Source: Anadara kagoshimensis
Taxonomy: Eukaryota; Mollusca; Bivalvia; Arcoida; Arcidae
Direction: 5' to 3'
DNA length: 64,000 bases
NCBI GenBank assembly: GCA_021292105.1
Contig: CM037870.1
Coordinates: 64,292,083 to 64,356,082, forward strand
Shown in pieces: positions 1,626 to 54,064 of the stretch. How positions within the stretch are numbered: the stretch's first letter is position 1; every line of letters starts with the position of its first letter. The translations under genes and the position numbers were made by a program. The notes beneath the pieces are model-generated. The model saw only the letters and a list, made by a program, of their open reading frames with translations. It was not told where the DNA came from and did not search any database.

Positions 1626-2300
1626 TGTAATTACCTGTTGTGTTTATATTGTCTTTCTATTTGGAAATATGTTTAAAAAGAAATCTTAACAAAATTAAGA
1701 AGCTTTTATTCACTTTAACATGAAAAAAAAAATGCACGATCAAATAATTTTCTATGAACAATATATGTAACAACGAATGGTTTCTTTTGGTTCTTTAAGA
1801 AGAAATAGGAAAACAAACTTTGATATACACAGCCATCAATAAATAACTATACAAATTTATATTTGTCATAGGTTTATATTGTAATTTCATTCATAGATTT
1901 CAAATATTGTAGTATGTGGAATTGATATCTTAACTTAATTGTCTTAATGTTTGCGAAGAAGTTGTTTTAACTGAACACAATATTCTTGGATTACTAAGCA
2001 GTATTTAATGAATTTCGGTGGAAATAAAAACAAATTTGGCTAAATATATATTTTAAGATTGAAAAGCGCTCAACTTGAGAAGAGTACTGTTTTATGATCT
2101 TACTAGTTGTTTTGTTTCAGTCCCTATTGCTATGCGTTTTAAACATGTATAATAATTTATGGATGGCAGTATATAATTGTACATGTCAACAACTGTTTAA
2201 TAATAAATGTTAAAAAGAAAAACTTGCAAAAAACATTGAAAAAACATATCTGCATTCCAATGAATTGAAATGTACCTATCATTAATTCTACAAGAGTTAT
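1626..2300. other. No gene seen; 3' flank of the SCP gene
   Basis: AT-rich sequence downstream of the poly(A) signals of the minus-strand gene. I find no exon, RNA gene or clear repeat. Confidence 0.5.
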
Positions 2301-2320
2301 CTTTCCTTAGTTGAGATTGT

Positions 2321-2336
2321 TTTATTCTTCTTTATT
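2321..2336 (-). terminator. SCP: Two poly(A) signals of the SCP-like gene
   Basis: On the minus strand AATAAA occurs at 2331-2336 and again at 2321-2326, 113 to 128 bases after the stop codon at 2449-2451. The position and spacing suit mRNA 3'-end formation near 2,300-2,315. Single AATAAA motifs are common in AT-rich DNA; the weight comes from the pair directly after the inferred last exon. Confidence 0.65.
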
Positions 2337-2484
2337 GTCTTTCATAAAAAATTGTGCATTATGTACAAAATCTCCATGTTGAACTTTGACCTTGAATTTA
2401 GTTTCTTTTCTCAATGCATAGTAACTAACTTTCGAAGAATAAAACTTCTTAAATTGATGTATCTTCATCCGTATTATCGAATTT
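2337..2484 (-). CDS. SCP: SCP-like precursor, terminal coding exon plus 3'UTR
   Basis: An excellent splice acceptor (a T-rich tract ending tatttttag) precedes position 2484. Read in phase 0, as the upstream donor at 3,477-3,481 requires, the exon gives KFDNTDEDTSI and then TAA at 2449-2451. The rest of the span is 3'UTR. The acidic tail follows the six-cysteine exon after a 997-bp intron. It was found by splice signal and phase, not by homology; the following poly(A) signals support it. A different, unseen last exon is possible. Confidence 0.65.
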
Positions 2485-5400
2485 CTAAAAATAAAAAATG
2501 ATATAATAGATCTTGTAACTATTCTAAGATATAATCGTTAATAACTACAACATTGACCTGTTAGCTTGACCTTTAATTTCGATTTTGTATTATGAACGAA
2601 TGTATTTATATATAATGAGCTCATGTATTTATTTCGTGTACAAAATGAAAAACACTCAGCACGAACACCGTTCATTTATGAGATGCGAATCTTATAAATA
2701 CTGCCCATGTAATAGGTGGATTGTTCTATATGAATGTTCTCATGAAAGGTCAAGCGGACAGATAAAGATCGTTTGCCTTTGATAATAATAATAATAATAT
2801 TATTGTTGTTGTTGTTATGTGAACATACAAATAGTTTTGTGGTGGTTTAAAGGACGCGCCTACTTATCACAGATCCTCTCACCTCTTAGATCCGAATCCA
2901 ACTACATATATATAGCCGTATACGTTTTTCTACAAACAATCTTTGTGTAGATGGTCCTATCATCATACGGTTTGAAATATCATAATACAAACTTTGATGA
3001 GAGTGGTTAATAAGGTAAGATGAGTTAAGAATGAATAGGTGGAAAGAATTGAAATCAGAAACTTCACGAGATATATATTACTTCCATTCTAACCTTATAT
3101 GAATATAAAAAAGACAATAATGAAGAATATACAAAACTTTATATGATACGAAATCGTATATTACATTGCAACCTGACCATGATCGTAGCTCAGTTATTAG
3201 AGCGCACGTTCTGTGCGTAGGAATTGAAGGTTTGAACCCTGGCAGGATGAGGCGAAGATAGAAAATATGTAGTGTCTGTTTGTTCACCAAGCATTCAACT
3301 TTAAGAAAAACTTTAAGAAATTTAAAAAGTCCTGCAACATAGTCCTGAACGCACTGCAAAGGTATAGATTTCCTTCATGTAATTATACATAATACAGCAC
3401 TAGACGGTCGTTTTGGAATACAATTCCTTTTCAGTAGTGCTTGGACCAACAGTGTGTATTATTGTTTTTAATCTATCTTACCTGTATAGGTGCACATAAA
3501 GCATACGTGTTCATGTTTCTTCTTACAACTCTTGTTGTTAGGCCATCACAACATTTACAAAGAAGTTGTTGAATGTCGGGTTCTTGTCCGGAAATCCAAC
3601 TTGTTTTCAATCCAGTACAGCATACATCATCAACATCCGAGTTATCGTTGTCCTGAGGTGGTTTTGGGAATGTTACCGGCTATTTAAATAAAATAAATAA
3701 ATTTTGCAAAAATCTAGTTTTTCTAAATGGTTGAAATATTTTATCTATATTCGTATAGAGACCGGATGTAGAAAAGAATAAATGTATCTTGCATAAGTCC
3801 GGTTTTCTAAATGGTTGAAATATTATACCAAAATCGATATAGAGACCGGCTGTAAATAAATCCAGCTTATCTTATAATTTCATTTTGCTTAAAATCGACA
3901 TATTCACGTTAACATAACCATTGTATTTATTTATTTAATCATTTATTGCATTCAATTTTTTATGCTTGATTTATTTAACATTTATTTGTCTAAGTATTTA
4001 AATCTAAAATGTATTTATTTATTATTGTGCTTATGATACTACTAATACTACTGGCGTGTGTAATTGCTTACTTAAAAAACTGTCATTGCATTTTAAATTT
4101 TTTATAACTTTTGAAAAGGTCAGTTTCAAATATTTTCTCTGTCAAAATAATATGCATGTCAAGGTGCAATGCTGCAAACACCATTTACTTTATACTGAAG
4201 TCAAAATTTATGTGATTACATTAAATCCCTGGTTTGAACCAGAAAACAATGTAATAATAGAAATAACATAATATTAACCTTTTCTGATAGGAAAATAAAA
4301 CAATGGGACCGAATTCAGAAAATGTTGTCACATGACCAATATGTAAATTTTCACATAATAATGCCATTTTCATAATTTAATTAAGAGAACATTTTAATAA
4401 ATTGTTAGCCCCCGAATACTGCTACATTTTAAAGGCCAAATTTATTGACATCGTCGCAAAGTAGGAATATCCACATGGCGTCCATGACAGCATGGCGTAA
4501 AAAAAAAAAAAAATATCAGATAAGGTCTAATTTATGAACATGCTTGAAATAAAAAAACATTTAAATAATTTTTGGTTACATTAAGGAGTTAAATTTCGTG
4601 TTTGATTCTATTTTTTTTATTTTATATCATTCCAACGTTAAGTCAGCGGTATTATAATCAGTGGCTCCCTATATATGTGTTTTGATATCGTTAATAAGGT
4701 TTTATCGTTTCATAATCTTGGTTCTATTGGCATTTGGTCATTGGCAGTTATATCTTTATAATCTTCAAATACCATTTTTATCCTTTCCCTTCAAAGTAAT
4801 TCCAAATTTTGATTTCACACGTGACCAGTGGAGCTAGCTAAAAGGAACAATTTGCACTTACGGAGCACCGAGCCTTACTTCCCTTGTGAAAGTTCACGTG
4901 CTACACATAATTTGCCAGCTTCAAAGTATTTTCCAAAGATTGTGATTTGTACATGGATTGGTATGTTTGATTTTGATTTTATATTTCCATTAAGCAATGC
5001 ATTCTCCATCGGATAATTTTTTCTCATGTATCTTTCTCAGCGATTCCTTTGAAATAAATGTTTTGTAAGATAATGTGTTAAATAATCATACGCTAAGGTA
5101 AATATTTAACAACAAAAGCTTGACGTATGTGCGGGATAACAAAAACAAATTAATGTATAAGACTGGGTAAAATCAAAATGTAGACGTCACCAGAACTCGT
5201 ATACAAGTTATATAGATTTCACAATAACCACGTTTTTATATGGCATAAAATCCGATTAGTGAAAAGTAGCTTATATCCAAAACAATTATTTAGGTTGACT
5301 GAGTAAATAAAACAATTATTGGGACTTGTCTAAAGTCTTGTAAATTGTAAAAATCTTTTACAATATTAGATTCTGCAAAATAAAAACAATCTCGGTGGTA

Positions 5401-7692: not shown

Positions 7693-7777
<85 letters not shown>

Positions 7778-10700
7778 CACTGGTGTTGAAATACAAACCA
7801 TTGACCTTCCTCCTCTTGGGTAGGCAAAGAAATTCTGTAAATAAATATACAATAAATTTTACATATCCATGGTCTAAAATATGTGATGATGTTATATTTC
7901 AAAATATAATATTGGAGCAACGAAAATATATCATCTATTGTAAATATTGCAATGCATTACCATGACAATTCGTAATCAGTAATCACTTTGACAAAGAATG
8001 TTAAGTTTTTTCAAAGGGATATACCAAAGTACCAAAATATATTTAATTACATTTGGCTAAAAATTACTTTGTAAGAGGCACTATACCTAAGTTTTTTAAG
8101 ATTTTCATAGTTCAACTAGCACAATATTAAAAAATAATATTTCTGACAATACAACATCATTGCTTACGTTGTTTATGATATTATAAGTCCCATTTTCTTT
8201 TTGATGTTATTGATATATCAGTTACTGAAGCCATTATTCATTGAAAGTATTAGTGTATCATTCATAAAATTTTTCACCTTTGAGAGCATTGGGCATCAGT
8301 AACACGACATACCCATTCACTTCCAAGTGAATTCAAAGTAAAACACATTTTAATCAATGTCAAAATTACAACCCCAAGCAAAGTAAAAAGATTTAAACTG
8401 ACATTTAAGGTTAAACGCGGGAACATCCACCAGGGAAGTGGGGACAAATAAGGAATCCGGGCATATATTTATTCACCCATACTTACACTTCTTCCGGCTC
8501 TTGGATAATGGAGGAAATTCTGAAAAGTCAAATGTAAACCACGTTATAAATCACATTAAAATTAAATACAAAGTCTTCAGGTCTTCAGTAGGTGTTAAAG
8601 GATTTTAGCACATCTTATTGGACTATGGTTCACCATTTTAAAATTAAAAAGAAATAATTAAAACATGCTTTAATTTTGACGAGAAGAAAAATCTGTTATG
8701 ATATAAGTAGACACTTAAATATTTGATTATTCAGAACAAAACATCTATTAAGGTTAAAATGCAATAATCAAAGTTGGCGTTCAAGCATGGGTCTTCGCCC
8801 TATCAATTCAAACGTATATTCTTTTCTAAAAAAGACATTCTGGTATTTTTGTAATATTATGGTTTTCTTATTCAAGTTATAAATTGATGTTATATATCAA
8901 TATTTTTTTCTATTTTCGCCTTAACAAACTTTCCTTATCATAGAAATTATGAAAGAAAGAGAAAACAATATTTTAGAAATTACCATTACAATCAAAAACA
9001 AACATACTTATCCATTTCCGAATCACAATCCAGAAGCAAAGTAAAAACTTTGGAACTGACAAGTTAGGCTAGACACGTGAACTTCCACCAGGGAAGTGAG
9101 GCCGGGTGCTCCGGAAGGGTAAGCACCTCCTGTTTAGCTAGCTACACCCGTCACGTGTGTAATCAAAGTTGTGTGAAAGGAACATGGAACTATGAGACGT
9201 CAAATATATCCAAGGCAATCCTGGACACAGAGACATCAAACTTATCAACAATACTGTGATGACGGCCATAAAACTTTTTGAGGGCCTTGATAAGCCTAGG
9301 CTTGCAATATCCCTGAGTCAACAATTTATTTGCAAGCAGCCTACTTCGTTGTACAAAGTCCCCGTAGTGGGAACAAGCTCTACCATAGCGTATTAATGTT
9401 CTTGTTTACTAACATGCCAGTTACAAAGTTTTTACATTGCTTCTGGATTGTGATTCGGGCATAGATATGTATGTTTGTTTTTTATTACCATACTCTTGTT
9501 TTATTCTATATGATCAGAATGATTTTTTGCTATTTTGTTATTCAACAGAATATTTTTGAACTATGCATCTGTATAACAGAAATGGTACACATGAGGAAAA
9601 TATAATCTACAGTTCCCGATAATTTAACAACAATCAACCTGATTTATGACTACTTTTCCTCCTCTTGTACAACAATAATTGGTCATTTAAGAGTAAGAAA
9701 TTCCGTCTTAGTGGGAATTTAATCTTCAACATCTACTTATGGTGTTATCACTCTAAAGTAATAGTGAAGCGGAATGTGACAGAACGATTACTTAGGTACG
9801 CATCCCTATCAATGTGTGACCAATCTTCATCATAACGCGCGAATTGCCATGACTAACAACAACAAAGTCAGTTATTAAGAACTAAAGATAAGTTTGATAT
9901 AACAAGCTTCTACTAATACTGCAGATAAAACTCATTATGCATGATTACTTAAAATAAACATACAGTACAGGCATGTCGAAAGTTTAACGCAAAGCTAATA
10001 AATTGGTGCCAATTTCGCATAACACTTTTGCTCCCTGTTGGCTATATTGCAAAAACTTTTCGGCAGCTGCTATATATCTCTTGAATGAGAAACTATCGAT
10101 ATCTCAACTACTGGGTAGCCGAGCTTCAACTTCTTTTCGATAGCTCGGTGTTAAACTTTCTACAGGTCTGTGATGTAGCCTAGTCTATAATCATCTTTTA
10201 CGACAAGATACCATAAGAGTCAGTAATTGGGATAACTTTCGTTGTACATCAATAAGTTCAAGCATTGGAGCTAATATAATGATGGCTTTTTGCCGACTGT
10301 TTGTGTCCCTTTAACAACCATTGTCGGTTAAAGGTGATCGTGTCACCTCAGTAACAAGACAAAATATAGCATGATGTATTTATGCAGAGAAATATGATTT
10401 AAATTGAAGATTGTCTGTTGGCTAATGTAATGCAAATGTTTTTATTCAAACTGAGTAAGTCGAAAACAAAAATAGCTATTGATTTCAAAATCACAATCTA
10501 AAATGACCTTTAAATTAACATGTAGCCTTGCAGTATATTCTTTGATTGTAATCGATGTATTGGTCAGTAGAGAATCGGGTGACGATAGTATTAGCGTACC
10601 CATTGAAAATGGTTTCACTTGCCAGGTTACGATTTCGAAAAAATGCACAAAATAACCCATGCCATTTCTTTATTGTTGTTTTTAACATTTGCCGGAACAC

Positions 10701-13700
10701 TAAGTGATGAATTTGTAGTAAGGTTTAAGCATTAAAATCAGTAGTTTATTTTGGCAAGGTTTACCTAATACTCAGTAGATTTTTAACGCTTACTAGCAAT
10801 TTGGTAAGGTTTGCCTAACACTTAGTCAGTTTTGTTTGGTAAGGTTTGCCAAATACTTTATAGGTAATTTTGGTAAAGTTTGCCTATAAGTTAGTCAGTT
10901 GAGGTTTCCCTAAAATTTAGTGAGCTATTAAGGTAACACCTCTGGTAAGGTTTGCCTGAGACTTAGTCAGTTATTTTGGTAACGTTTGCCTGACACTTAG
11001 TGGGTTATTTTGGTTAGGTTTAACAACACTTACCGGGTAATTCTGGTAAGGTTTGCCTGAAACTTAGTTATTTTGGTAACGTTTGCCTAACAAACGGTGG
11101 ACAATTGTGGTAAGGTGAACACTTAGTAGGATTTTTTTATAAGGATTGCAAAACACTACTTCGACAGTTTTTTATGATAAGGATTGCAAAACACTTAGTC
11201 CGTTATTTTGGCAAGCTTTGACTAGGTCAGTTATTTTGAAAAGGTTTGCCAAGTGAATTATTTTTTATAAAGTTAGCTTTAAATCTATTGGATTATTTCG
11301 GTAAGATATGCCTAACACTAAACGCCTTGATTGTACATTACTGGATATTATTTTTAAATAATTTATATCATTTGACGATACTGTAAACTAAATTGACAAC
11401 GTTAATAATACTGATACATAATGGTAGATATGACAATTTACCCTATATATTCCATAACAAATCAGTTTCTAAGACTGTAATATATCAAGTGTAATTTGTA
11501 AAAATGTGTTATACGCATGCGTTATGAAACCATGACAATATATCAACTAATATAATGCATATTTTAAATCACAAGTCATATACCTATGTCTTGGTACCTC
11601 TTTGTTTATTTTGTTTCAAATTGATTACTAAGGATTTACATGTATCCAGCTGATAATGTGTAAAAACGCGTTATTGTGTATGTGTTATGAAACCACGACA
11701 ACATATAGACTAATATAGCGTATAACCGTTTTATTGAAGCGTTGTTGAATTTAGTACAGAAACCCGATAAGAACGAAGAAAATATCTAATGTTTAGAAAG
11801 AACAGAGAATTTTAGCGTCTTTGACATGAGGTAGTAAAATAATATTTACCACGTTTCCAGAGTTGGAACCAATTGTGCGAGCAAGAAACTAAGAATAAAA
11901 AATACATTTATCTAACCTTACAATGATTCCAAATTCAAAATTTTAAACCAATTATAAAAATTATTTCAAATCAATTGCTGAAAAACGAAACAGTGGAAGA
12001 TATGTGATCAAAACGGATTTTACTGATTACAAATCACTGACTTAAATATAAAAAATTACATATTGAGTAAAATGAAAATGATAGAATTAATAACTTCAAT
12101 TTACCCTTGTTAAAAAAATTAACTTTTACACATTTACGAATGAAAGTTGAAAGTTATTATGTCTTTTAGTAATGCACATTATGTTTAACAAATTGCAGTT
12201 TTAAAAAGGAGTAGATACAAGTATTTGGTCTTCAAATGCGGTATAATATGAACATTTTTTTATAAAGGATACTACGAAATATTCCATCAGGTGACGACAT
12301 ATGGCATTTTGAAATACAATTCTTAATCAGTAATACTCTGATTATGGCAATTTATAAATTTCTAAGATGATGAAATAAGAAAGAGAGAAGGACCAAAATG
12401 TTGTTTCTTTCCAAATCCAACTAAAATACTACTTTGAGCGATGACCTTATCATGACTGTTTAAATGAAAAACTTTAATGAAATCGGAGTTAAATTAGAGT
12501 TAATAAAATATTTGTTAGATATTATATTTTTGTATAATGTTCTGCTACTTTTTCTTTGATTTTGTAAATTCCTTTTTCATACCTGGTACTAACAAGACCT
12601 ACATCGTATTTACTCCTTATCTTAAGATTGTTTACGTGACAAATATAGTGGAATTATTTATTTATTTATTTATTTAACATATTACTTTTTTCTATGTTAT
12701 ATAGAAACATTCACATATTTCTATAAATGAAAAGTTTTAAGAGAATGTGAATAGGTGGCTATACGAATGGATGTCTACATGCTCGAGAAAATCAGAGAGG
12801 AAAACAGGACGCCAACATGCGCGCGCACACATTATCATCAGACGGCATTATATACCAAGGCATCACTGAACAAATGGTTATATTTGTATATATGTAAATG
12901 CGTATATATCATATATAAGTCTTGTATATCCAGTACATAACATAATTCATACATCTATATATTTCCAGTACATATTCATACATCTATATATTTCCAGTAC
13001 ATATTCATACATCTATATATTTCCAGTACATATCCATACATCTATATATTTCCAGTATATATTCATACATCTATATATTTCCAGTACATATTCATACATC
13101 AATATATTGCCAGTACATATTGATACATTTATATATGTTGAATACATTATATTGACAATACTCTTACATTATTACTCCAGCACATTCACAATACATCGAC
13201 ATATCTTATATCGTTATACAACATAACGTATAATTGAAGTACAATTGAATCTCTATGCGATGATTAAATAGCAGACTCCCTGCGTTTTTGACAATGAACT
13301 TTACAATAGTTTTATAGAAAAAAAAAAAAAAAACTTGAATAAGGTTTGGTATTTTGCATTTACTTTGACCAATCGTAACATAAACAGGCTTAAGTAAGTT
13401 AATTATATCAAACGTTAAATATTTAAGTAATGATTGCAATTTTGTTATGAAAATTGTGAGTATTTCATCTTCACAAACACGATTACTTTGAAACTAGATA
13501 ACCATGGTGTTTCAAGTAGAAAAAGTAATCTTCAAACTTCACACTTAAGTATACCATCAGAATCATAAACAAGAAACAGGACCAAAATTACCTTAATGAG
13601 AAGTTATCTTCCTTTATAAAACAACTCCATTTGTCGGAGTTCAGGCCTTGTTAACAAGTCAATACAAAAGTAGATTTTCTTCAACAAATACATTCAACAA

Positions 13701-16700
13701 TGAAATAGCATGCGCCTAACAACGTCGTTTTAGGGAACATAATATGCATGATGAACCATTGATAACATACAATATAATAGATGACATATATCAATAAATT
13801 CACATTAACACCATCATTTATATTCACTATGTATACCCATATTTCCATAATATACAATTGTGCAATACAAACCAAGTGCTGTGTCTTGTGATTATATATC
13901 GATACCAAACCTCACATGTTGGTGGTTCATGCACATGCAACTTAGCTACAAACCTGGTCAACTTCTTCTCCGTTTTGTAGTGCTTCAGATAACATACCCA
14001 AAAATAGTTTGATATATTGGTCCTTAAGTTTTGGATCTAAATTAGCTCTATCTATATCAGCTATATTGAGAACGCTCTGTAAATGTTGAAGTGGAAATAA
14101 TGTCAACTACGAGGGCACAGGTTAAGTATGTTGATATTGTTGATATTGCGAATCACTTAATAACTAATAATAATATTTCACAAACTTCACAACAACGACT
14201 ACAGTATGAATATAGGAATATATTTTGTAAATCTCCTTATAATATTTAATGTTATAAAAGCTATCATTAGGAAGGAATGGTAATAACGTCAACTACAAGG
14301 TAAAAGTTTGGAGGGTACAGTTTAACTGTATTGATATTGTGAATAACTTCACATACTTTACAACAACGGCTACATTATAAATATTGGGAATATAATTTGC
14401 ATAACGCCTTATAATGTTTTTTTATAATAGCTATATTCAGGGAGAAGTGAATATAAAGTACAAAACAAAGTAAAACCTTGGAGGGTACAGTTTAACTCTA
14501 TTGATATTATGAATCACTTAATAACTAATTATGATATTTCACAAACTACACACAAACGACTGCACCATAATAATAAGGAATATTTCTAATTGATTTCCTT
14601 ACTTTTCAAATTATTTTATCATAACTGTTACATATGTAACAAAATTTAAATTGACGTCAACTAACATGTAATAGCTGAATTCTACTGTTATTGTGAATGA
14701 AATAATAACTAATTATGATAATGTAAAAAACGAATACGTAGTAAAAATCTCGTAAACTGCCTACACCTTTTTATTTGATAAAGCTGTCATCAAGAAGAAG
14801 AGAAAATAAAGTCAACTACCAGATTGAAGCTTAAATATTGATATTGTGAATAAAGCTATATTTAATTATTACACTTCACAACGACGACTTCATAATTTTC
14901 TGTTCTAGTATCGGAACTCCTAGATATAGAGTTTATAATATTAAAATTTAGCTATCTAAAGACTACAAAAACTAAGCAACACTAAATGTTTTAGAATAAA
15001 AAATATTTTCAAAATAACAGAATATCAAGCAATATAAAAAGTAAGAACTATTAACGCATAGGGAAATAGCAAGACTGGGGTCATTTTTGCCTGGAGCTAT
15101 TCCATTGAAAAACAAACAAACACTTCCCGATAAATAGTTTTGACAACATTAAATGCCAATTTGAATTTCGTATTAATAATTGTTTTATAATAGAAGTATA
15201 ATTACCCCCTATAGAGTTGCATCTCAATGAATCTCGGTCCGAGTTTTACATTTTTGTAACCGTCGTTGTATCACAATCACCACTAATTATGAAAACTTAA
15301 TTGATTTTTCACCAAATCAATGATGCTAAATTACATAACCATTCATTTAACAATATAAAACAATTATCATGAATTTTCAAATGGCCTAATTTGGTCAATG
15401 GATTATCCTAACTACATATCTACTATGACAACTATTATAAAATCTTTTTGTTATTACCTAGAATGAAGTAAATAACGTTCAGAGAATCAATGTGTATATC
15501 ACGTGAAAACATTCTTAAGCAGTTCCAATGTAAGTATGAAGTTTTTTTGTATTTTTTGTGGACATTTGGAATAAATATTACCAAACCAGTTTAAAATTTG
15601 CGAAAATAAAGTATTAAATAGCTACGTAAAACAGAAGAATATTCCAAATATGTCTATACAGTTTTGTATAAAAAGCAAATGTCTTGAAATTGTTTGCTAT
15701 TATTTGGATATAAGAATTACTTGTCATTAGTTAGTGTCGACACAATACAAAATTAAAAGTATTATATATGAATTTAATAAATATTTCATTGTCCGGATAC
15801 TGCAAAATTCGACATGATATATATATTAAAACTCTGATTCTGAAACGCTAAGTAAGCAGGCGGCGCATTGTGTTTGTTTTGTATCCTGAAATAGAAGCAA
15901 CAAAGCGCTAGTTGCAGAAACTACTTGCGTACAACGCTTTAAATAAACGATATTTATGACGGTGTATCGTACCCAGGGATCGTCCTCATCTACTGCTCGC
16001 TTTCTACCTAAACGTGGATGCTGGAATCTCTTATAAGATACATGAAAATTCTGCACATACAATGTTTACATAATCAAAAAATCATACAAAATAATAAAAA
16101 TTAATATCAAATAATAAAATTAGTATCAAATAACTAAAATTCATATCAAATAATAGAATGTAAATTGCATCTTTCTTGTGCATCAAATTATTACAAATAC
16201 ATATTACATACTTGAAAACATAATATGCTTAACTGTAGTTTGTATAATTTGAATAATGTTTTATTTTAATTTTAAATTTCCTTCTATTGTGATATGTAGA
16301 CGCATTGAATTTAAAAAATTATATTACAAAAACAATATGTTTGAAATCAATATAAAGTGTATAATAATCAGATTTGGTTTAAAACCAGAAATGAATCGTT
16401 TATAATGTATATTTATTTTGTATCAATTACATCCGTTTCCAGATAATATTTACACTATTATACATGAATATGTTTTCTTTATTCAATAACATTGTATAAC
16501 AGAATACAACAGCAGAGGATGTAATTTTTTTATCGATAAGTTAACATTAATATAGCGCTTAATTTTCCTTGAATGCGTGCGTAATTAGTGTCAAAATTAT
16601 ACATCAAATGTATTGTTTGTTTAAAAAAAGAGAGTACAAAATACACAACATCGGAGATATGAAATGACAGAAAGAGACGTTTAAGTAGATAGAAAAACAA

Positions 16701-19700: not shown

Positions 19701-22700
19701 TGCTAAATATTTTATAAAGTTAGAGTTTGCGCATGCGCTGAGTTGTATAGTGTTGGTTGAACGTACCTCTGATGATCGCCTGCCCAATCTTGGATGTTGA
19801 ATGCCCTAAATACAAAATCGATCTATCGCATTGCAAAAGTGTACCCTTAACATGCATCTAATAATCAAACGAAAAATATCTTAAACAAACTCTAAAAACG
19901 TATATCTGCATCGATCTTTGTCCAATCAACTGTGACATTTTCTGAAACACAATTCATTTTGACACCATTAATCATAGTAGATATTGCTACATTTCCCTCA
20001 TTAGAACTTTTTAATTTTCAATGTTTGTCCCGTTTGATTGCTTGTTCCAAGTATGTTTAATTATCCAGAGCGTTTTCAAGTGTACCAAGTGATACACTGA
20101 AAAGTTTATGCGTTAGAACCGAAAGTTTAATTTATAATATGTAATTATACTGATTAATAAAAACAACATTGTCATCTTTCGACCGTGTTAAGAATAAGTC
20201 TCTGGGGTGTACCATGTGATCCATATAAACATCCAGGTGCATCATGTGATCAGCATACGCACGGAGGTTTATCATGTGATACACATACCGTGTGATCAGC
20301 ATAAACACCGTTCGGAAGTGGACCATGTGATACGCGAATGGACAAAACCAACAATGAGTTCAACGTTTATGTAAACGCAAGTACCCATTATTTATGGCAA
20401 AAAGGGCAAAAAATTTAATCTGGTAGTGATATTTGTTTAGATCTAAACTCAATACAACCAAAAGGTATTCAAAGCAAATAATTGGGCCGTATCTATTAGG
20501 CAGTTCATTGTGTTGCATAATAGATTTACCTTAATTGGTACCGCTTTACCATCCATACACGTCTGCTAAAATAACCGCCTGTTGCCAAATATTCTTCATG
20601 GGTTATTCAATAAGTTATGACAATAATACCATTTCTTGTTTAGATGTAAATTATTTTGCAGGCAAAATAAAATAAATTATTAAAAAGTAAAATTTGAAAT
20701 TGGAATATAATTGTCAAAACCCCGTTGATTTTCTATTAATATTTTACAAAGACAAAATTGTTAAACTATAACTATATACCCTGTATTTAAAAGTCTGAAA
20801 CATTAAATAAAATAAAAATTTAATTACAAGGAAAATATTCTTTTTTCTTTTGATTGAAAAACATTTAAGTATTTGCTTTTTTATTTCGGGTAAATAAAAT
20901 TGGTTAGTTTTCAGATGCAAAAGGTTCCCAATTCTTATCACAGATAAAAAATCTTCAATCCAAAAGATTCATCAACTGCATCGAAAGATGTACAACTTAC
21001 CAAATATATAACAAATAAATTGAATATAATTCAAAAACACGAATTTCATCACGCTCCAAAAATTATTCAAGATTTGGAAATGTTTATTGGACATAGCTTG
21101 TCCATGCACCTTTCAAGCTAGTCTGGAAATCAATTATTCATTAAAACGATGTTTGAAATATGTTTATCGAGGGAGGGGTATTATATCTAAATACTATTTT
21201 CTATGTTCAAAAACAATGGTGTTTCTTTGATTCTTCGTTAAAATAAAAAAACGCCTATTATATACATGTAGTGTTATTATCATATTCAAAACTAAGGTAG
21301 TACAACTGGTGCCTTTTATCAAGACAACCCGCAGTTTTTGCATCCTTTGTAAAAATAAAGCGCATGGTGTTTAATTAATGTTTAAATCCTAAAAAAGTTC
21401 GCAGCATATATATTCTTTTCTGGAGATAGCCCGCGGACTATGCGCCTATTTTACAGATAACAAGCAGATTTTTTACATCCTTAATTAAAAAATTTAATAT
21501 ATTTACCCCTTTCTAAAGATAACTCGCAGTCTTTGCGCCCTTTTCAAAGATAATAAGCAGCTTTTTGTATCCTTAATTAAGACTTATTCCTTGAAGAACA
21601 GCCCAGTCTTTGCGCCCTATTTACAGACAATTTTTGTATCCTTAATTAAGATAAGTCGCAGTTTATTGATTAATTTTATTAAGATAACCCCGATTGTTTG
21701 TACTCTTTTAAACCCGTAGTTTTTGTGCCCTTTGTAAAGATAACACACATATTTTTTGTTTCTTGCACCCTTAATTAAGATAAGCCACAATTTATCGAAG
21801 ATAACCCTCAGTGTTTGCGCCGTTTTAAAATATAACATGCAAATTTGTGTATTCTTAACTATAGAAAGTAACAGTATATTGATTCCTTTTATTAAATAGC
21901 CGCATGTCTTCCTTCCGTTCTTTTTAAAAATAACTCTCAGTTCAAAATACCCATGTTAATCCCATATTTATAATACTTTGTATATAACATAGTGCTAATT
22001 ACTACAATGGTGCTGTACTCTATAACAATAAAAATCTACCAAAAAATGAAGTAAATACAAATTCTACATAAATTAAATCAGTGTATTAAGTTATATTAAC
22101 TTAAAAGAATTGAAGTGTTGCTTACCGGAGCTCTCTTCTGTCGAAGTAAAGAAACAGCCTGAAATAAGGAAAAAATGGGTACATGTTAGTAAAATGTATG
22201 TCATGTAATATTTTTATTAAAAAATACCAATCTATGTCAAAATCACAATCCCCAAAGCATATAATTAAAAACAAACATACTAATCCATATCCGAATCACA
22301 ATCCAGAAGCAAAGTAAACACTTTGGAACTGACAAGTTAGGTTAGACACGTGAACTTGCACCAGAGAAGTGAGGCCGGGTGCACCGGAAGAGTAAGCACC
22401 TCCTGTTTAGCTAGCTACATCCGGCACGTGTGTAATCAAAATTGTGTGAAAGGAACATGGAACTACGGGACAATAACTTTGAAAACTGGCAAATCCAATA
22501 TGTGTATAGGACCAATGGTTAAAACGTTTTATAATAGCCCCTACTTATAGTTAAAGGAACCAAAAGAACCTTTAATTTTAGTATTATCTTGTTTCGCACA
22601 CTGGTTGTTAACGATTGAGAAAAGCAAAAACGGGTCAATGTTAAGCTCTACAGAGATAACAAAGAAAAAGGAAAAATAATAATAAAATGTTTCAAAACTA

Positions 22701-42579: not shown

Positions 42580-42624
<45 letters not shown>

Positions 42625-42826
42625 CAAATAAATGCATGCTCAAGCTATTAAATATTTCTATATAATGTTAGTCTGTGTATTTAGTTGTTTTTCTTGTTGT
42701 TAAAGAAATGCATAATTTTGGTTTAAAAATGTTCTTTATAATATTTGGAGCAACACTTACCTTAGAGTCTATGTGTAGAGCAAACAATAAAAGCACAACA
42801 AGAGCTCGAAGAAATCCTGAAACCAT
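2449..42826 (-). CDS. SCP: Small cardioactive peptide (SCP)-like neuropeptide precursor, nine visible coding exons
   Basis: Spliced CDS (minus strand): 42826-42761, 22158-22126, 19805-19767, 16050-15973, 14076-13954, 11888-11850, 8519-8487, 3652-3482, 2484-2449; 618 nt, 205 codons plus stop. Every exon is a multiple of three and every intron is GT..AG in phase 0. Domain order: hydrophobic signal peptide; pro-segment ending RQKR; APGIQHPRL-GRR; KR-FQHPRL-GRKR; acidic/amphipathic spacer; NFLHYPRA-GR; then CC-x19-C-x-CC-x17-C. Known of the family: SCPs are secreted amidated molluscan peptides ending PRM/PRL-amide, acting through G-protein-coupled receptors on heart, gut and feeding muscle; from memory, gastropod precursors carry peptide copies followed by a six-Cys tail containing CC..GLK and GQE, as seen here. 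Inferred: identity and processing. Introns hold many transposons; the longest is 20.6 kb. A non-coding 5' exon must exist, because an acceptor precedes the ATG. Confidence 0.8.
2781..2818. repeat. Compound (AAT)n-(TTG)n microsatellite
   Basis: Runs of aat then ttg, each about five to six units, joined by 'attattg'. Confidence 0.9.
3165..3365 (+). mobile_element. tRNA-derived SINE-like segment
   Basis: 'gtagctcagttattagagcg' resembles a Pol III A box and 'ggtttgaaccctgg' a B box, about 40 bp apart. No proper cloverleaf forms, so it is not a functional tRNA. The 3' part 'cctgaacgcactgcaaaggt' recurs near 27,430 as 'cctgaacgcattgaaaggt', which supports a dispersed retroelement. Confidence 0.5.
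3393..3455. repeat. Dispersed repeat E
   Basis: 'cagcactagacggtcgtttt' + ggaatacaattcc + cagtagtgctt matches 19,363-19,465 and, more weakly, 12,285-12,400. It lies only ~25 bp from the donor of the six-cysteine exon. Confidence 0.6.
3482..3652 (-). CDS. SCP: SCP-like precursor, six-cysteine C-terminal exon
   Basis: 57 codons open in phase 0, bordered by acceptor cacctcag and donor CAG|GTAAGA. The peptide starts with an acidic stretch (DNDNSDVDDV), then CC at residues 11-12, the string TGLKTSWISGQEPDIQQLL, C32, C34-C35, a basic middle (RVVRR) and C53 in ALCAPIQ. Gastropod SCP precursors, as I recall them, end in a domain with the same order: CC, GLK, GQE, C, CC-GL, then M..C.P. This is the strongest family evidence in the gene. 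GC content is clearly above the flanks. It would form three disulfides if folded like the family; the domain's role is unknown. The plus-strand frame over the same bases is a shadow. Confidence 0.85.
3706..3865. repeat. ~83-bp direct repeat, two copies
   Basis: 'ttctaaatggttgaaatatt' followed by gatatagagaccgg/cgtatagagaccgg and gtagaaaagaataaat/gtaaataaatcc occurs twice in tandem. Confidence 0.8.
3870..4780. other. Intron 7 segment, nothing recognised
   Basis: AT-rich sequence with a poly(A) run at 4500-4514 and scattered tttattta tracts. No exon borders or repeat relatives seen. Confidence 0.5.
4781..4970 (-). mobile_element. Family A element copy, truncated
   Basis: Landmarks in reverse: ttgatttcacacgtg, gctagcta, 'ggagcaccgagccttacttc', gttcacgtg and the terminal block ggattggtatgtttg. 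The 5' half of the element is missing. Confidence 0.8.
5500..5645. repeat. Degenerate ~38-bp tandem repeat
   Basis: About four units of aataatcac...gttaaaagttt/gtcaaa: ataatcactaaaagc, ataatcacgagtag, ataatcacgacgag, ataaatcactt. Confidence 0.6.
6258..6322 (-). mobile_element. Family A terminal fragment
   Basis: 'cagtttcaaagtttttgttt' + cttctggatgtgattcagacatgg + attagtatgtttg is just the ~65-bp terminal inverted repeat, a solo end. Confidence 0.75.
6640..6970. other. GC- and CpG-enriched island inside intron 7
   Basis: About 330 bp with visibly more G+C and CpG (gcacgcgacg, gcggacg, ggcgacaatgtacgc) than the AT-rich surroundings. It holds an open frame of 100 codons on the minus strand that has no initiator context, signal peptide, splice borders or family I recognise. 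'aaatatggcgac' and, nearby at 7060-7080, 'cgccatgtttggcgg' resemble YY1-type sites. It could be a regulatory element or an old transposon fragment. Confidence 0.35.
7691..7778. repeat. Compound (CA)n(TA)n(GA)n microsatellite
   Basis: Three dinucleotide tracts in direct succession: ca, then ta, then ga with one interruption. The minus-strand frames over it (SLSLSL, IYIYIY) are artefacts. Confidence 0.98.
8352..8440 (+). mobile_element. Family A fragment next to an SCP exon
   Basis: ccccaagcaaagtaaaaag, aactgaca, ttaaacgcgg and 'acatccaccagggaagtggg' match the first 100 bp of the full copy. It ends about 46 bp from the donor side of the exon at 8,487-8,519. Confidence 0.7.
8487..8519 (-). CDS. 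SCP: SCP-like precursor, NFLHYPRA-GR peptide exon
   Basis: A 33-bp exon with strong borders: acceptor gacttttcag and donor AGT|GTAAGT. In phase 0 it reads NFLHYPRAGRS. YPRx-Gly-Arg is the amidation and cleavage context of SCPs, giving ...FLHYPRA-amide; the last residue is Ala where known SCPs carry Met or Leu. No dibasic site lies directly upstream in the spliced model; the nearest basic residue is Arg in FLAR of the previous exon. The next exon supplies the acidic start of the cysteine domain, the same order as in gastropod precursors (peptide-GRS-acidic-CC). The exon is too short to be found by ORF length. Confidence 0.75.
8994..9484 (+). mobile_element. Family A, full-length element with terminal inverted repeats
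   Basis: Left end 8994-9060 (aaaaacaaacatac...caatccagaagcaaagtaaa) and right end 9415-9484 are reverse complements with about eight differences. The interior is non-coding: the short frame at 9077-9259 recurs in the copy at 22.35 kb and is repeat-borne. 'attaccat' occurs at 8979-8986 and 9484-9491 and could be an 8-bp target duplication, but the left copy is 7 bp from the recognisable end. Non-autonomous DNA transposon (MITE-like); the superfamily is not determinable here. Confidence 0.85.
9961..10177. mobile_element. Family B element copy
   Basis: Begins tacagtacaggcatgtcgaa and ends ctttctacaggtctgtgatgta. Interior landmarks: ttggtgccaattt, ttttcggcagctgc, tagccgagcttc. The TA-CAGT start suits a Tc1/mariner-type MITE with TA target duplication, an inference from the ends only. 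Confidence 0.85.
10290..10725. other. Intron 6 segment, nothing recognised
   Basis: Overlapping minus-strand frames of 72 and 61 codons cover 10,442-10,700, but neither shows splice borders that fit the phase of the gene nor any known motif. I do not call a gene. Confidence 0.4.
10730..11325. repeat. Degenerate ~34-bp tandem array
   Basis: About 17 units of tttggtaaggtttgcctaacacttagtcagtta with frequent deletions and substitutions. Its high divergence marks it as much older than the satellites beyond 37 kb. Confidence 0.9.
11850..11888 (-). CDS. SCP: SCP-like precursor, linker exon
   Basis: A 39-bp exon with a strong acceptor (tattttttattcttag) and donor GTG|GTAAAT. In phase 0 it reads FLARTIGSNSGNV. 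It connects the spacer exon (ending EEVDQ) to the NFLHYPRA exon; the single Arg in FLAR is the only nearby candidate cleavage site. A second reading frame is also open, so the reading rests on the phase-0 rule seen in all the other exons. Less certain than its neighbours. Confidence 0.6.
11889..12280. other. Intron 5 segment, nothing recognised
   Basis: Very AT-rich unique sequence just upstream of the linker exon. Confidence 0.5.
12285..12400. repeat. Dispersed repeat E, diverged copy
   Basis: 'ttttgaaatacaattcttaa' + tcagtaatactctgatt, then gatgaaataagaaagagagaaggacc, matches the order in 19,363-19,465. Confidence 0.55.
12945..13140. repeat. 29-bp minisatellite
   Basis: About seven units of catacatctatatatttccagtacatatt, nearly identical in the middle and diverging towards 13,140. 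Confidence 0.95.
13954..14076 (-). CDS. SCP: SCP-like precursor, acidic/amphipathic spacer exon
   Basis: A 123-bp exon, 41 codons, open only in phase 0; both other frames hit stops within 25 bases. Acceptor caacatttacag, donor CAG|GTTTGT. It starts SVLNIADIDRANLDPKLKDQ and continues YIKLFLGMLSEALQNGEEVDQ: acidic with an amphipathic helix-like stretch, no Cys and no paired basic residues, as expected of a precursor spacer that is not itself cut. It joins ...DEDDPW of the previous exon without disturbing the frame. I know no named domain for it; its presence between the peptide copies distinguishes this gene from the compact gastropod precursors I recall. Confidence 0.85.
14098..14910. repeat. 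Degenerate ~160-190-bp tandem repeat, about five copies
   Basis: Ordered landmarks recur: gtcaactac, ggagggtacagttta, ttgatattgtgaatcactta, ataactaat.atgatatttcacaa, caacgact.ca, and ttataatagctat. Unit starts lie near 14,102, 14,288, 14,466, 14,655 and 14,812. It begins only ~22 bp from the acceptor of the spacer exon. Confidence 0.85.
14915..15780. other. Intron 4 segment, nothing recognised
   Basis: AT-rich sequence. Candidate donors here (for example near 15,200) lack matching acceptors or give stops. Confidence 0.5.
15826..15885 (-). CDS. SCP: Possible alternative terminal exon of the SCP-like gene
   Basis: A strong acceptor (tttgttgcttctatttcag) sits 87 bp downstream of the donor of exon 15,973-16,050. 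In phase 0 it reads DTKQTQCAACLLSVSESEF and TAA. Retaining the 87-bp intron (29 codons) also keeps the frame open. Either event would end the precursor after the first two PRL peptides, without the spacer or the cysteine domain. It may instead be chance; no poly(A) signal stands out. Confidence 0.3.
   Translation of the reverse strand, partial: DTKQTQCAACLLSVSESEF
15973..16050 (-). CDS. SCP: SCP-like precursor, FQHPRL-GRKR peptide exon
   Basis: A 78-bp exon in phase 0: NFHVSYKRFQHPRLGRKR followed by AVDEDDPW. KR before FQHPRL and GRKR after it are the standard prohormone convertase and amidation signals, so FQHPRL-amide is the predicted product; without KR cleavage the peptide would extend upstream. 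GC content is well above the intron background. The acceptor (attgtatgtgcag) is moderate and the donor TGG|GTACGA is weak, which may matter for alternative splicing. A second possible acceptor (gattccag) inside the exon would start it at HPRLGRKR in the same frame. The acidic DEDDPW end leads into the spacer exon. Confidence 0.8.
16085..16160. repeat. 26-bp tandem repeat, three copies
   Basis: aaaattaatatcaaataat, aaaattagtatcaaataac, aaaattcatatcaaataat in succession, directly upstream (minus sense) of the FQHPRL exon. Confidence 0.75.
16165..17285. other. Intron 3 segment, no gene called
   Basis: The longest minus-strand frame (97 codons, 16,710-17,003) contains an acceptor-like tttgttttcag near 16,953, but the phase-0 reading ends after 17 codons and there is no donor. 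An AATAAA lies shortly after. I do not support a coding exon. Confidence 0.4.
17290..17935. repeat. Degenerate ~53-bp tandem repeat, split by AT-rich DNA
   Basis: Units of agtcggcgacgtaacaca + ggtgaggaaacagtcaaac + aaagat occur at 17,290-17,430 and again at 17,693-17,935. The 260 bp between them is unrelated AT-rich sequence and may be an insertion. Confidence 0.65.
18333..18626 (-). mobile_element. Family A copy, about 60 percent of the element
   Basis: In reverse it carries 'ctgactcagggatattgaaa', cttatcaagaccctaaaacg, gtccgtcatcacaatattgttg, 'cccttccggagaacccggtc' and a terminus at gatgtttgtttttt. It therefore includes the internal part seen only in the full copy, which helps define the element. 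Confidence 0.85.
18700..18880. repeat. ~52-bp tandem repeat, three to four copies
   Basis: tgtgcgcaaagattgtctagaccca, tgtgcaaagtttgtctaagccca, tgtgtacaaagatttcctaatgcca, tgtgtacaaaag at about 51-53-bp spacing. Confidence 0.8.
18947..18961. repeat. Poly-G run
   Basis: An uninterrupted run of about 13 G between 'tgtt' and 'tagttgctgctagc'. Unusual in AT-rich DNA, and prone to length error in sequencing. Confidence 0.9.
19026..19215. repeat. ~100-bp direct repeat, two copies
   Basis: gtgcgatactatgtatttgaa..aataatctataatgcat and atgcgatactattaaatttgaa..aaaatctataattcgcat share order and spacing. Confidence 0.7.
19363..19465. repeat. Dispersed repeat E, best copy
   Basis: cagcaccagacggctgtatcg + aaataaaattcctcatcagc + agtgctcagatc, then gttgaaataagaaggtagaaggacc. 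Related to 3,393-3,455 and 12,285-12,400. Confidence 0.65.
19767..19805 (-). CDS. SCP: SCP-like precursor, GIQHPRL-GRR peptide exon
   Basis: A 39-bp exon with acceptor gattttgtatttag and donor GAG|GTACGT. In phase 0 it reads GIQHPRLGRRSSE. Joined to the preceding exon (...RQKRAP) it yields KR-APGIQHPRL-GRR, so the mature peptide would be APGIQHPRL-amide, nine residues, the size and PRL-amide ending of molluscan SCPs. QHPRLGR is shared with the exon at 15,973-16,050, so the two look like an exon duplication. If the optional exon at 20,530-20,565 is included, the mature peptide would be 21 residues. Confidence 0.8.
20195..20335. repeat. Degenerate ~42-bp tandem repeat
   Basis: catgtgatccatataaacat, catgtgatcagcatacgcac, catgtgatacacatac, gtgtgatcagcataaacacc, catgtgatacgcg in succession. 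Confidence 0.7.
20530..20565 (-). CDS. SCP: Possible extra cassette exon of the SCP-like gene
   Basis: A 36-bp stretch with acceptor ggcggttattttag and donor AAG|GTAAAT, open in phase 0: QTCMDGKAVPIK. It would sit between the RQKRAP and GIQHPRL exons. Inclusion would break the tidy KR-APGIQHPRL-GRR peptide and add an odd cysteine, so I leave it out of the main model. Its length in threes and good borders make optional inclusion or a decoy equally possible. Confidence 0.35.
21300..21950. repeat. Degenerate ~36-bp tandem array with alternating units
   Basis: Units of gataac.cgcagtctttgcgcccttttcaaa alternate with tccttaattaagataa..gcagtttttgtatc, with many deletions. A minus-strand frame of 73 codons over part of it simply reads the repeat. 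Confidence 0.8.
22126..22158 (-). CDS. SCP: SCP-like precursor, dibasic pro-segment exon
   Basis: A 33-bp exon with near-consensus borders: acceptor ttttttccttatttcag and donor CCG|GTAAGC. In phase 0 it reads AVSLLRQKRAP. RQKR is a furin/PC-type cleavage site, so Ala-Pro would become the N-terminus of the next peptide; AP- starts are, from memory, usual for bivalve SCPs. It follows the signal-peptide exon after a 20.6-kb intron. Two family A fragments start about 68 and 108 bp upstream of the acceptor. Confidence 0.8.
22226..22470 (+). mobile_element. Family A copy, with a second partial terminus in front
   Basis: The main copy starts at 22,266 (aaaaacaaacatac) and runs through 'gaggccgggtgcaccggaag', tttagctagctac and gtgaaaggaacatgg. 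A second end fragment (gtcaaaatcacaatccccaaagca) lies at 22,226-22,262, so two insertions are abutted. Confidence 0.8.
22795..22955 (-). mobile_element. Family A copy, truncated (within segmental duplication)
   Basis: Reverse landmarks: catgtggcgggtgtagctag, cttccggagca, ggtctcacttcac, tcggtatgtttgtgttt. Confidence 0.8.
23348..23520 (-). mobile_element. Family A copy, truncated
   Basis: Reverse landmarks: acatgtggcgtatgtagcta, aggaggtgctta, ttctcacttccctgattgaa, tgatttggatatggattagt. It lies between the two halves of the duplication. Confidence 0.8.
23770..23858 (-). mobile_element. Family A fragment
   Basis: 'catttccctggtggaagttc' + acgtgtttaatttaatgtgtcag and a shortened terminus (tcgtgtgagtttgttttt). 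Confidence 0.75.
24430..24830. repeat. Degenerate ~95-bp tandem repeat, about four copies
   Basis: Landmarks aagcc(a/g)gaattttatg, ttggggttcagaa, ataac(c)catcaccattcaact and cc(g/t)acc.taag recur with 92-100-bp spacing. Confidence 0.7.
25155..25298 (-). mobile_element. Family A copy, truncated
   Basis: Reverse landmarks: cttccggagcacccggtcg, gtagaagttcacgtgtttaa, attgtgatccatgtggacat. Confidence 0.75.
25601..25773. mobile_element. Family B element copy, short form (173 bp)
   Basis: tacagtacagacgtcaaaag at one end and ctttcgacaggtctgtactgta at the other. Interior ctcggcagctattggcagc. Both ends are intact. Confidence 0.9.
26398..26418. repeat. (AT)n microsatellite
   Basis: About ten at dinucleotides. 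Confidence 0.9.
26529..26655 (+). mobile_element. Family A copy, truncated
   Basis: gtgaacttccaccagggaag, gctgggtgctcctta, 'ctagctagctacacccacca'. The terminal inverted repeat is lost. Confidence 0.75.
26690..27135. repeat. ~360-bp spaced direct repeat
   Basis: gttcaaccaggaaaagaata + aacggtaccacaatatcgg near 26,727 and cttcaacctggaagagaata + aacggtagcacagtatcgg near 27,088. Confidence 0.75.
27240..27460 (+). mobile_element. SINE-like element, second family
   Basis: agcgggtcgaactcttcctg (B-box-like) + gtctgaccaagtcttgaaaatag matches 49,000-49,105 (ttgagccactgtttggtccg + accaacaatagaaaatag). The 3' block cctgaacgcattgaaaggt is shared with 3,165-3,365. Confidence 0.5.
28492..28580 (+). mobile_element. 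Family A fragment
   Basis: ccctgagcaaagttaaactt, caggttaagcacatcctgtt and tagctaactacacccgcc, with an internal deletion of the accag..ccgggtgc block. Confidence 0.65.
28585..29185. other. Intron 1 segment, nothing recognised
   Basis: AT-rich unique sequence between a family A fragment and the fold-back element. Confidence 0.5.
29192..29990. mobile_element. Fold-back element with flanking direct repeats
   Basis: The arms 29,411-29,545 and 29,755-29,880 are reverse complements (gtaggaaccac, tttatatccatagaaaatca, ttacttgtacctagtc, aggaaatctgtatgcgcat), and a second inverted pair, tatggggatttt/aaatccccata, lies further in. Outside, 29,192-29,300, 29,341-29,402 and 29,889-29,990 carry three direct copies of a unit with attcagtcaagctt, cgttccttgacgaaaa and tatttcaacccctacagtga. 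The centre is relatively GC-rich with 'gtgacgttttacgtcatatg'. Confidence 0.75.
30060..31340. other. Intron 1 segment, nothing recognised
   Basis: No exon with fitting phase: a 9-bp and a 12-bp candidate near 30,355-30,385 are too short to trust. No repeat relatives found. Confidence 0.45.
31345..31512 (-). mobile_element. Family A copy, truncated and diverged
   Basis: Reverse landmarks: cattcttaattttgattgcacacgtgg, ttagctaaactagagg, acatgttttactta, gatatgtttgtgttt. Confidence 0.7.
32174..32251. mobile_element. Palindrome, ~34-bp arms
   Basis: tatctatatgtaaaaacg..gttgcaaaaaaatct against agattttttgcaac..cgtttttacatatagata: one mismatch and one 1-bp indel, loop gaataattt. Confidence 0.85.
32611..32848 (+). 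mobile_element. Family A copy, 5' half
   Basis: caaacatactagtccatgta, ttttccaccagggaattaag, caagcacctcttgtttagct and aaaacgtcaaatatatcgac in the order of the full copy. Confidence 0.8.
33515..33875. repeat. ~72-bp tandem repeat, about five copies
   Basis: Landmarks ttcagtcgctta, acacctttgcattcatccca, atcgcttaccaccttaacaa, atgcatt repeat in order; the first copies are the most diverged. Confidence 0.85.
34221..34258. repeat. (ATT)n microsatellite
   Basis: About twelve att units with one atc interruption. Confidence 0.95.
34790..35550. repeat. ~75-bp array derived from a SINE tail
   Basis: About ten units of cctcgatataagtgaaagaa + tctttactgggacgtaaaac + atcataactccactccacaa + tccccgaacttatgg. 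The core 'ctcgatata.atgaaagaatctt.actgggg.gtaaaac' is the 3' tail of the SINE at 56,960-57,185, which indicates amplification of that tail. Confidence 0.8.
35843..36068. mobile_element. Family B element copy
   Basis: gacagtacagccctgtcaaaag to gttaaactttcggtaggtct. Interior acagcttttcggcagctgcc and aacagcttttcggccactga. Confidence 0.85.
36228..36445. mobile_element. Family B element copy
   Basis: caatacaggcctgtcaaacg to gttaaacgtttcgacaggta; interior ccctctcgttagctatatttcgg. Only ~160 bp from the previous copy, in the same orientation. Confidence 0.85.
37155..37225 (+). mobile_element. tRNA-like SINE head
   Basis: gcggtagcttagttg + ggtagagtgc (A-box-like) and tggattgaacacctcc (B-box-like). 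No cloverleaf; the 89-bp array starts right after it. Confidence 0.4.
37246..37796. repeat. 89-bp satellite, six near-identical copies
   Basis: Unit starts (ggtagcgactgttctatcgg) at 37,264, 37,353, 37,442, 37,531, 37,620 and 37,709, exactly 89 bp apart. Copies 2-6 alternate cagtata/cagtatg before the start, so the amplified block was a 178-bp dimer. Confidence 0.97.
37905..38110 (-). mobile_element. tRNA-derived SINE
   Basis: On the minus strand 'cttggttcgaatccaactcg' is a perfect B box in context, followed by gtgaaaaagtttttcag, gttcgcttgttgaaagagctg, tccggacactttggtttcc and gacggggacgttaaactc. The same body occurs at 44,830 and 56,960. A 30-codon open stretch inside it is not a gene. Confidence 0.65.
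38757..38985. repeat. 56-bp tandem repeat, four copies
   Basis: ctaagcactattggtgtctg + aagttaaacacgctagtcct + gatttcacaaccatat repeats at 38,761, 38,817, 38,873 and 38,929 with almost no differences. Confidence 0.97.
38990..39555. other. Intron 1 segment, nothing recognised
   Basis: AT-rich unique DNA between two tandem arrays. Confidence 0.5.
39560..40795. repeat. 37-bp satellite, diverged at one side, homogeneous at the other
   Basis: Unit cggatacgaaatctcacagt + catctgtcaggaagaat. From 40,430 to 40,780 the copies are almost identical; towards 39,560 they drift (aaagtcatttgt, cttgtagtcat). As 37 is not a multiple of 3, a 90-codon frame here cycles through all three readings of the repeat every 111 bp. 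No unique spacers, so not a CRISPR array. Confidence 0.95.
41041..41213 (+). mobile_element. Family A internal fragment
   Basis: gttccggaagggtaaggacc, gtttagctagctacgccc, gaatggaacatggaac and attgtgaagacggacatata: the middle of the element without either end. Confidence 0.75.
41541..42057. mobile_element. Palindromic element with ~65-bp inverted ends and inner arrays
   Basis: taggaggttttaccggaata + attgcgaaattccggaatag + ttagacactttccgtaatct at the left end is mirrored at 41,975-42,037 with few differences; acgtatacta/tagtataaacgt extends the match. Inside, a left array of ~20-bp ttaccgtaataatcagtctt and a right array of gattattccggattttgcct are themselves rough reverse complements, so the whole 517 bp could fold back. 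Confidence 0.8.
42582..42621. repeat. (CT)n microsatellite
   Basis: About twenty ct units, ~140 bp from the signal-peptide exon. Confidence 0.98.
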
Positions 42827-42851
42827 TTCAACTTTGATTAGCTTTCTGTTT
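42761..42851 (-). CDS. SCP: SCP-like precursor, signal-peptide exon
   Basis: On the minus strand an acceptor (aattttatttcag) precedes 25 bases of 5'UTR, then ATG at 42,826. The frame encodes MVSGFLRALVVLLLFALHI and DSK, then a consensus donor AAG|GTAAGT. One Arg followed by a run of hydrophobic residues is a typical secretory signal peptide. The ATG is the first in the exon (GTTGAAATGG, purine at -3). Since an intron precedes the exon, a non-coding first exon and the promoter lie further right and were not found. The plus-strand frame over the same bases is a shadow. Confidence 0.8.
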
Positions 42852-44840: not shown

Positions 44841-44935
44841 GCACCTCTCACCGCCTAGGTTCAAATTCCACTCAAGACAGTTCCTAATGTGAGAATTTTG
44901 TCAGTTCACTTGCCGTAACCATTGACCAAATCTTT
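44830..44935 (+). mobile_element. tRNA-derived SINE body
   Basis: gcacctctcaccgcctaggt + tcaaattccactcaagacag (B-box region) + ttcctaatgtgagaatttt + gtcagttcacttgccg. It passes without a break into the 53-bp satellite. Confidence 0.65.
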
Positions 44936-53860: not shown

Positions 53861-54064
53861 CATGTATGTCTGTTCGGACGACGACAAAACCCCTCAATAA
53901 ATAATTATAAACTACAAAAAGTCTGTACTGTAGGTTCGAACTTCTCTCGAAGTCCGAGTCCTGTATTCTGCCACACATTTTTGTAACTGGAACTAATCGG
54001 CTTCCGTAGTAAAGATTGCGACAGTTTCATAAATCGGTCGTCATAGTTGAAATTATAGTCGCTG
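53861..54064. other. Short spacer between two satellites
   Basis: Unique sequence; the first diverged 100-bp unit begins around 54,015. Confidence 0.5.

Follow-up and report, generated by a model that had tools for sequence, protein, structure and literature searches.

In molluscs, small cardioactive peptides (SCPs) are reported to control feeding and digestion and perhaps the activity of the heart; in the scallop Patinopecten yessoensis a precursor (sCAP) with six conserved cysteines yields APNFLAYPRG-amide and AMFSYPRL-amide, as confirmed by mass spectrometry (PMC5996578). In the nudibranch Melibe leonina, four SCP isoforms are reported, two of them with an extra peptide, SCPC, and their authors term them alternatively spliced (PMC8735849). 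Here, we analyzed a stretch of 64,000 nucleotides of the bivalve Anadara kagoshimensis (hereafter the window; contig CM037870.1, positions 64292083-64356082), whose minus strand carries tiny exons spread over a gene span of ~40 kb. They belong to a real SCP precursor gene, in which splicing would probably set alternative peptide modules behind a common RQKR-AP and in front of a shared Cys tail. Like the scallop precursor as described in PMC5996578, the locus encodes a signal peptide, an AP-starting PRX-amide peptide, two copies of this peptide type and six cysteines. The neuropeptide family is a known one; what is unusual is the exon layout.

Exon structure of the locus

The original prediction had proposed a secreted, amidated, molluscan SCP-like precursor extending over ~40 kb, and a signal-peptide exon, an RQKR site and PRx-Gly peptide exons were indeed located (Table 1). 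Motif and splice-site scans show AG/GT at the internal exon borders and phase 0 throughout, in line with what had been proposed. The same applies to PRL-Gly peptides with dibasic cuts (E3 and E4), a spacer, a CC-x19-C-x-CC-x17-C domain and, at the 3' end, a stop codon followed by poly(A) signals. A further exon, E7, was detected via a six-frame search for PRxG-type motifs.

Table 1 Features of the putative SCP precursor gene in window coordinates
Feature	Content	Position	Strand	Remarks
E1	start codon and signal peptide MVSGFLRALVVLLLFALHIDSK	42761..42826	(-)	donor GTAAGT
E2	AVSLLRQKRAP, furin-type site and dipeptide AP	22126..22158	(-)	splice score given in the text
E3 (module A)	GIQHPRLGRRSSE	19767..19805	(-)	APGIQHPRL-Gly once joined to E2
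E4 (module A)	NFHVSYKRFQHPRLGRKRAVDEDDPW	15973..16050	(-)	FQHPRL-Gly flanked by KR / RKR
E5 (module A)	41-residue acidic spacer SVLN...EEVDQ, helix-like by eye	13954..14076	(-)	
E6 (module B)	NFLHYPRAGRS	8487..8519	(-)	APNFLHYPRA-Gly with E2; donor GTAAGT
E7 (module B)	NFFAYPRGGRSM	7799..7834	(-)	APNFFAYPRG-Gly after E2, SNFFAYPRG-Gly after E6
E8	six-Cys domain CC-x19-C-x-CC-x17-C	3482..3679	(-)	acceptors 3679 (score 3.0) or 3652 (0.1)
E9	KFDNTDEDTSI and stop codon	2449..2484	(-)	acceptor score 3.8
Poly(A) signals	AATAAA at 2336 and 2326	2321..2336	(-)	~113-123 nt past the stop

Across phase-0 introns, the AP of E2 can start three continuations, namely GIQHPRLG (E3), NFLHYPRAG (E6) and NFFAYPRGG (E7). 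The peptide exons form two modules: module A (E3-E4-E5) comprises APGIQHPRL-Gly, FQHPRL-Gly and the 41-residue spacer, and module B (E6-E7) comprises the SCP pair with Gly-Arg spacing. Both modules are in phase 0, both can follow RQKR-AP and both can enter the single-copy six-Cys exon. In the 1.115 Gb assembly (36 contigs), E8 has one match at E ≤ 0.001, with two candidates scored, and E5 has one match at E ≤ 1; the SCP precursor gene is single-copy. Large tandem arrays lie upstream of the gene at 44916-47765, 52018-53761, 54061-56640 and 62771-64000 (units of 53, 21, 100 and 41 bases), some of them yielding long repetitive open frames.

Resemblance to bivalve SCPs and database searches

Compared with the scallop peptide APNFLAYPRG, AP+E7 shares nine of ten residues, a match conditional on E2-E7 joining, and AP+E6 shares eight of ten, whereas AP+E3 agrees at only two of nine end-aligned residues. 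The signal peptide is followed by predicted amidated aromatic-PRX peptides (NFLHYPRA-G, NFFAYPRG-G), which come closely behind it only if E3-E5 are skipped; given E2-E7 joining, a mature peptide near a known bivalve SCP would result. E8 contributes six Cys. The original prediction had equated this domain with the SCP tail, and the number of cysteines does agree with the published account, which states a count rather than a spacing (PMC5996578). Unlike in the scallop, AMFSYPRL-amide is not among the PRxG motifs of this locus; an HPRL-amide module, in turn, does not appear in the sCAP section of the scallop paper (PMC5996578).

Neither the Cys exon nor the spliced precursors retrieved an SCP relative when protein collections were searched and contigs scanned, the collections covered presumably including few animals. 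The sole match of the protein searches is a 76-residue protein identical to the open frame over E4. This protein (P0001, from a contig of 1,855 bases) corresponds to that frame read from GTG, window positions 15829-16056 (-); the contig could be a short public record from this or a very closely related animal. PDB matches of the Cys exon (four sequences at E ≤ 10, the best a non-specific lipid-transfer protein at E 0.035) were rejected as chance. Pfam returned no family for the two spliced precursors; among eight other open reading frames of the window, three had matches below curated cut-offs (E 0.022-0.083) and five had none. Neither an Rfam match at gathering scores nor a tRNA was detected in the window. 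Structure prediction of E8 alone by AlphaFold2 reached a mean pLDDT of 56.

As a molluscan marker, a PGWamide precursor with many PGWGKR copies was found in the same genome (locus L003, contig C1 near 45309273 (-)), where two open frames contain the R/K/V/A-PGWGKR copies; PGWamides are reported from all conchiferans except Monoplacophora (PMC6425005). The AP-NF-x-x-YPRG peptide, for its part, would suggest a bivalve.

Splice-site scores and the nine-exon model

Splice and composition scores were computed with generic matrices not trained on this species. In a scan of minus-strand positions 62000-3000 for signal-peptide-like first exons, E1 ranks at the top of two passing starts (hydrophobicity 3.38, donor 7.7), the other being located at 8426 (-) with hydrophobicity 3.15 and donors of 2.2-2.4. 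A looser first-exon scan of 60000-20000 added starts at 47096, 47078 and 22204 (hydrophobicity 2.08-2.17). Among phase-0 open segments of 27-39 nt, the splice score of E2 is the best, reached by one of 468 segments on the minus strand (E2 itself) and by none of 398 on the plus strand. The score of E5 is likewise reached by E5 alone among 69 minus-strand segments and by none of 51 on the plus strand. E3 (donor 6.0, acceptor 0.2) comes close to this, with 2/329 minus-strand segments, itself included, and 1/360 on the plus strand. Less distinctive are E4 (4/159 minus, 3/202 plus), E6 (4/468 minus, itself included, 1/398 plus) and E7 (acceptor 4.8, weak donor GTTTGT of -0.9; 6/387 minus, itself included, 5/371 plus). 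For longer exons (phase 0, 99-210 nt, both strands), six segments clear the splice thresholds. E5 and E8, with two acceptors each, account for four of them, E5 ranking first and E8 being the sole other locus with a positive score; the remaining two scored negative. By splice score, E2, E5 and E8 are distinctive and E3 almost is, whereas E4, E6 and E7 are supported by their peptides instead. Amino-acid composition speaks for E5 (9.2 bits) but does not favor E6 (0.1 bits, near neutral).

The original prediction described a nine-exon transcript encoding 205 residues. Joining E1+E2+E3+E4+E5+FLARTIGSNSGNV+E6+short E8+E9 gives exactly 205 residues, then a stop, and since 22+11+13+26+41+13+11+57+11 = 205 and the splice reads to the stop, we took FLARTIGSNSGNV (11888-11850, termed E5b) as the ninth piece; this joining is very likely the model that had been proposed. 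Eight of its nine exons hold. The remaining one, sixth in order, lies at background splice level: its score is reached by 4/329 minus-strand segments of similar length, itself included, and by 7/360 on the plus strand, with a composition score of 0.4 bits. E5b was therefore rejected as an exon. As reconstructed, the single transcript also omits E7, whose likeness to a known bivalve SCP is the greatest of all the exons, and leaves NFLHYPRA without a basic site in front, so that the model did not survive as a whole.

Chance level and constraint between paired exons

We next asked how often such motifs arise by chance, using a criterion set after the exons had been seen: an open phase-0 AG..GT segment had to contain PRxG[RK] preceded within two residues by F, Y, H or W. 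The window has four such cases on the minus strand and none on the plus strand. The mean was 0.003 in 300 first-order and 0.0155 in 2,000 second-order simulations, and neither set ever produced more than one case. The bare motif PRxG[RK] has the same four minus-strand occurrences, every one in a segment of the full type, and is absent from the plus strand; in the 2,000 second-order simulations it averaged 0.24 and reached three at most.

The peptide exons resemble each other in pairs. In the core shared by E3 and E4 (eight codons, picked as the matching part after the exons were seen), seven of eight residues are common despite eight nucleotide differences (pS 1.12, pN 0.11). E6 and E7 have eight of 11 residues in common with 12 nucleotide differences over 11 codons (pS 0.78, pN 0.24). 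Silent differences are thus near or at saturation in both pairs and replacements are few. When equal numbers of changes were placed at random, as many residues were retained in only six of 15,194 stop-free trials for E3/E4 and nine of 13,000 for E6/E7. The introns flanking E6 and E7 are not clearly alike (8, 8 and 11 of 20 positions upstream, 15/40 downstream). We read the pairs as old duplicates that appear to have been held by selection; convergence on one motif is conceivable as another source of the likeness, given such short sequences.

These data bear on the notion that the gene is an artefact of chance open segments. Single short phase-0 segments with fair splice scores do exist on either strand of the window, E5b probably among them. 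However, simulations never exceeded one case of the full type compared with four here, the paired exons are under constraint and a known scallop peptide is matched, which together make an artefact scarcely credible.

Alternative arrangements of the exons

Six splice combinations were tested and all are open to one common stop, so the reading frame cannot choose between splicing models. One of them, E2-E6-E7-E8-E9, gives a 133-residue precursor with RQKR-APNFLHYPRA-GR-SNFFAYPRG-GR. Transcripts with one module or part of it would have 133, 122, 121 or 190 codons ahead of the stop, compared with 213 when every exon is included. Because only direct E2-E6 joining puts a cleavage site before the E6 peptide, we infer alternative splicing of modules A and B.

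A constitutive mRNA with all exons, E1-E2-E3-E4-E5-E6-E7-E8-E9, would come close to the original idea. It encodes 213 residues and is equally open because all exons are phase 0, its junctions being in frame and without a stop; SNFFAYPRG would also keep Gly-Arg in front. The products of such a precursor would be APGIQHPRL-amide, FQHPRL-amide, SNFFAYPRG-amide and a peptide of 57 residues with NFLHYPRA-amide at its end. Yet NFLHYPRA would be preceded by EEVDQ rather than by a basic site, and the AP of E2, with which published bivalve SCPs start, would in no case be joined to the exons resembling these SCPs. We therefore regard this arrangement as unlikely; modules A and B used as alternatives are the economical explanation and account for the exons better than a single nine-exon transcript does.

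The dissimilarity of the module A peptides to known SCPs could instead point to two adjacent genes, a PRL-amide gene (E1-E5) that ends separately and an SCP gene (E6-E9) that starts from a different first exon. The E5 frame indeed stops three codons past the donor (VCS-stop, 13942-13953 (-)), and a transcript retaining this intron would encode a truncated protein. However, the first AATAAA/ATTAAA after E5 is found at 12674, ~1.3 kb further on, and minus-strand positions 62000-3000 hold no convincing second signal-peptide exon, the start at 8426 lying downstream of E6 with weak donors. The shared AP boundary, moreover, suits both modules. Two genes are thus improbable, even more so than the constitutive mRNA, and one gene with alternative modules remains our preferred reading.

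Discussion

In the proposed mechanism, E1 would direct the precursor into the secretory pathway, and a proprotein convertase would cut RQKR at the end of E2, exposing Ala-Pro. Joining of E2 to module B would then give APNFLHYPRA-amide and SNFFAYPRG-amide, and skipping of E6, with E2 joined to E7, APNFFAYPRG-amide; with module A, E2 would give APGIQHPRL-amide, FQHPRL-amide and the spacer. Either module would run into the six-Cys E8 and the short E9, and the C-terminal glycines of the peptides would be converted to amides. By analogy with other SCPs, the predicted peptides may be ligands of PRXamide-type receptors in muscle and gut. We lean, by a modest degree, toward a two-way switch, in which splicing behind RQKR-AP swaps the YPRA/YPRG-amide pair for an undescribed HPRL-amide pair while the leader and the six-Cys tail are kept.

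If true, exchangeable peptide sets would show how bivalve SCP peptides diversify, and with such a switch a single locus could supply different neurons with distinct PRXamide dialects. Exons of 33-39 nt evade annotation by ORF length; genes of this kind can nevertheless be found in genomic sequence through motif, phase and exon pairing, and exact predicted peptides and junctions are now supplied for searching.

Judged by its predicted sequences, the pair APGIQHPRL-amide / FQHPRL-amide seems unfamiliar beside the classical SCP set. IQHPRL and FQHPRL were not found as molluscan peptides in the main texts of the open-access papers searched. The same texts gave no match for NFFAYPR or NFLHYPR, and NFLAYPR occurs in PMC5996578 only. 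Among texts with HPRL-amide, QHPRL, HYPRAamide or AYPRG, PMC5996578 (AYPRG) is the sole molluscan neuropeptide paper by title. Identity of module A with pleurin was considered and rejected: the predicted peptides are 6-10 residues long with PRL, PRA or PRG at the C-terminus, and slug pleurins are described with 14-15 residues and PRI or PRV amide ends (PMC7749107). The scallop pleurin is given as IFYTNKEGNDFPRIamide, and that of the oyster is said to end in Famide.

A different branch of the PRXamide family also has HPRL-amide endings: TSSLFPHPRLamide, from the CAPA/periviscerokinin precursor of the locust, ends like the module A peptides but differs in its N-terminal part (PMC4237046, PMC3061863, PMC2667406). 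Module B, in turn, recalls the oyster peptides APKYFYFPRMamide and SAFYFPRMamide, which begin with AP and S as do AP+E6 and S+E7 here, a likeness of the peptides themselves rather than of their arrangement in the precursor; they carry FPRM in place of YPRA/YPRG (PMC4200219).

The proposed splicing has precedents by analogy in the Lymnaea FMRFamide and nudibranch SCP genes. The latter is likewise an SCP gene whose alternatively spliced transcripts add a peptide; in Melibe, however, SCPA and SCPB are described in every isoform and a third peptide is added, whereas here whole sets would be exchanged (PMC8735849). The FMRFamide gene of Lymnaea stagnalis joins a common first exon to alternative peptide exons, giving different sets in different neurons. 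It differs in encoding another peptide family, and in Anadara the 3' Cys exon, too, can be shared (PMC4208409).
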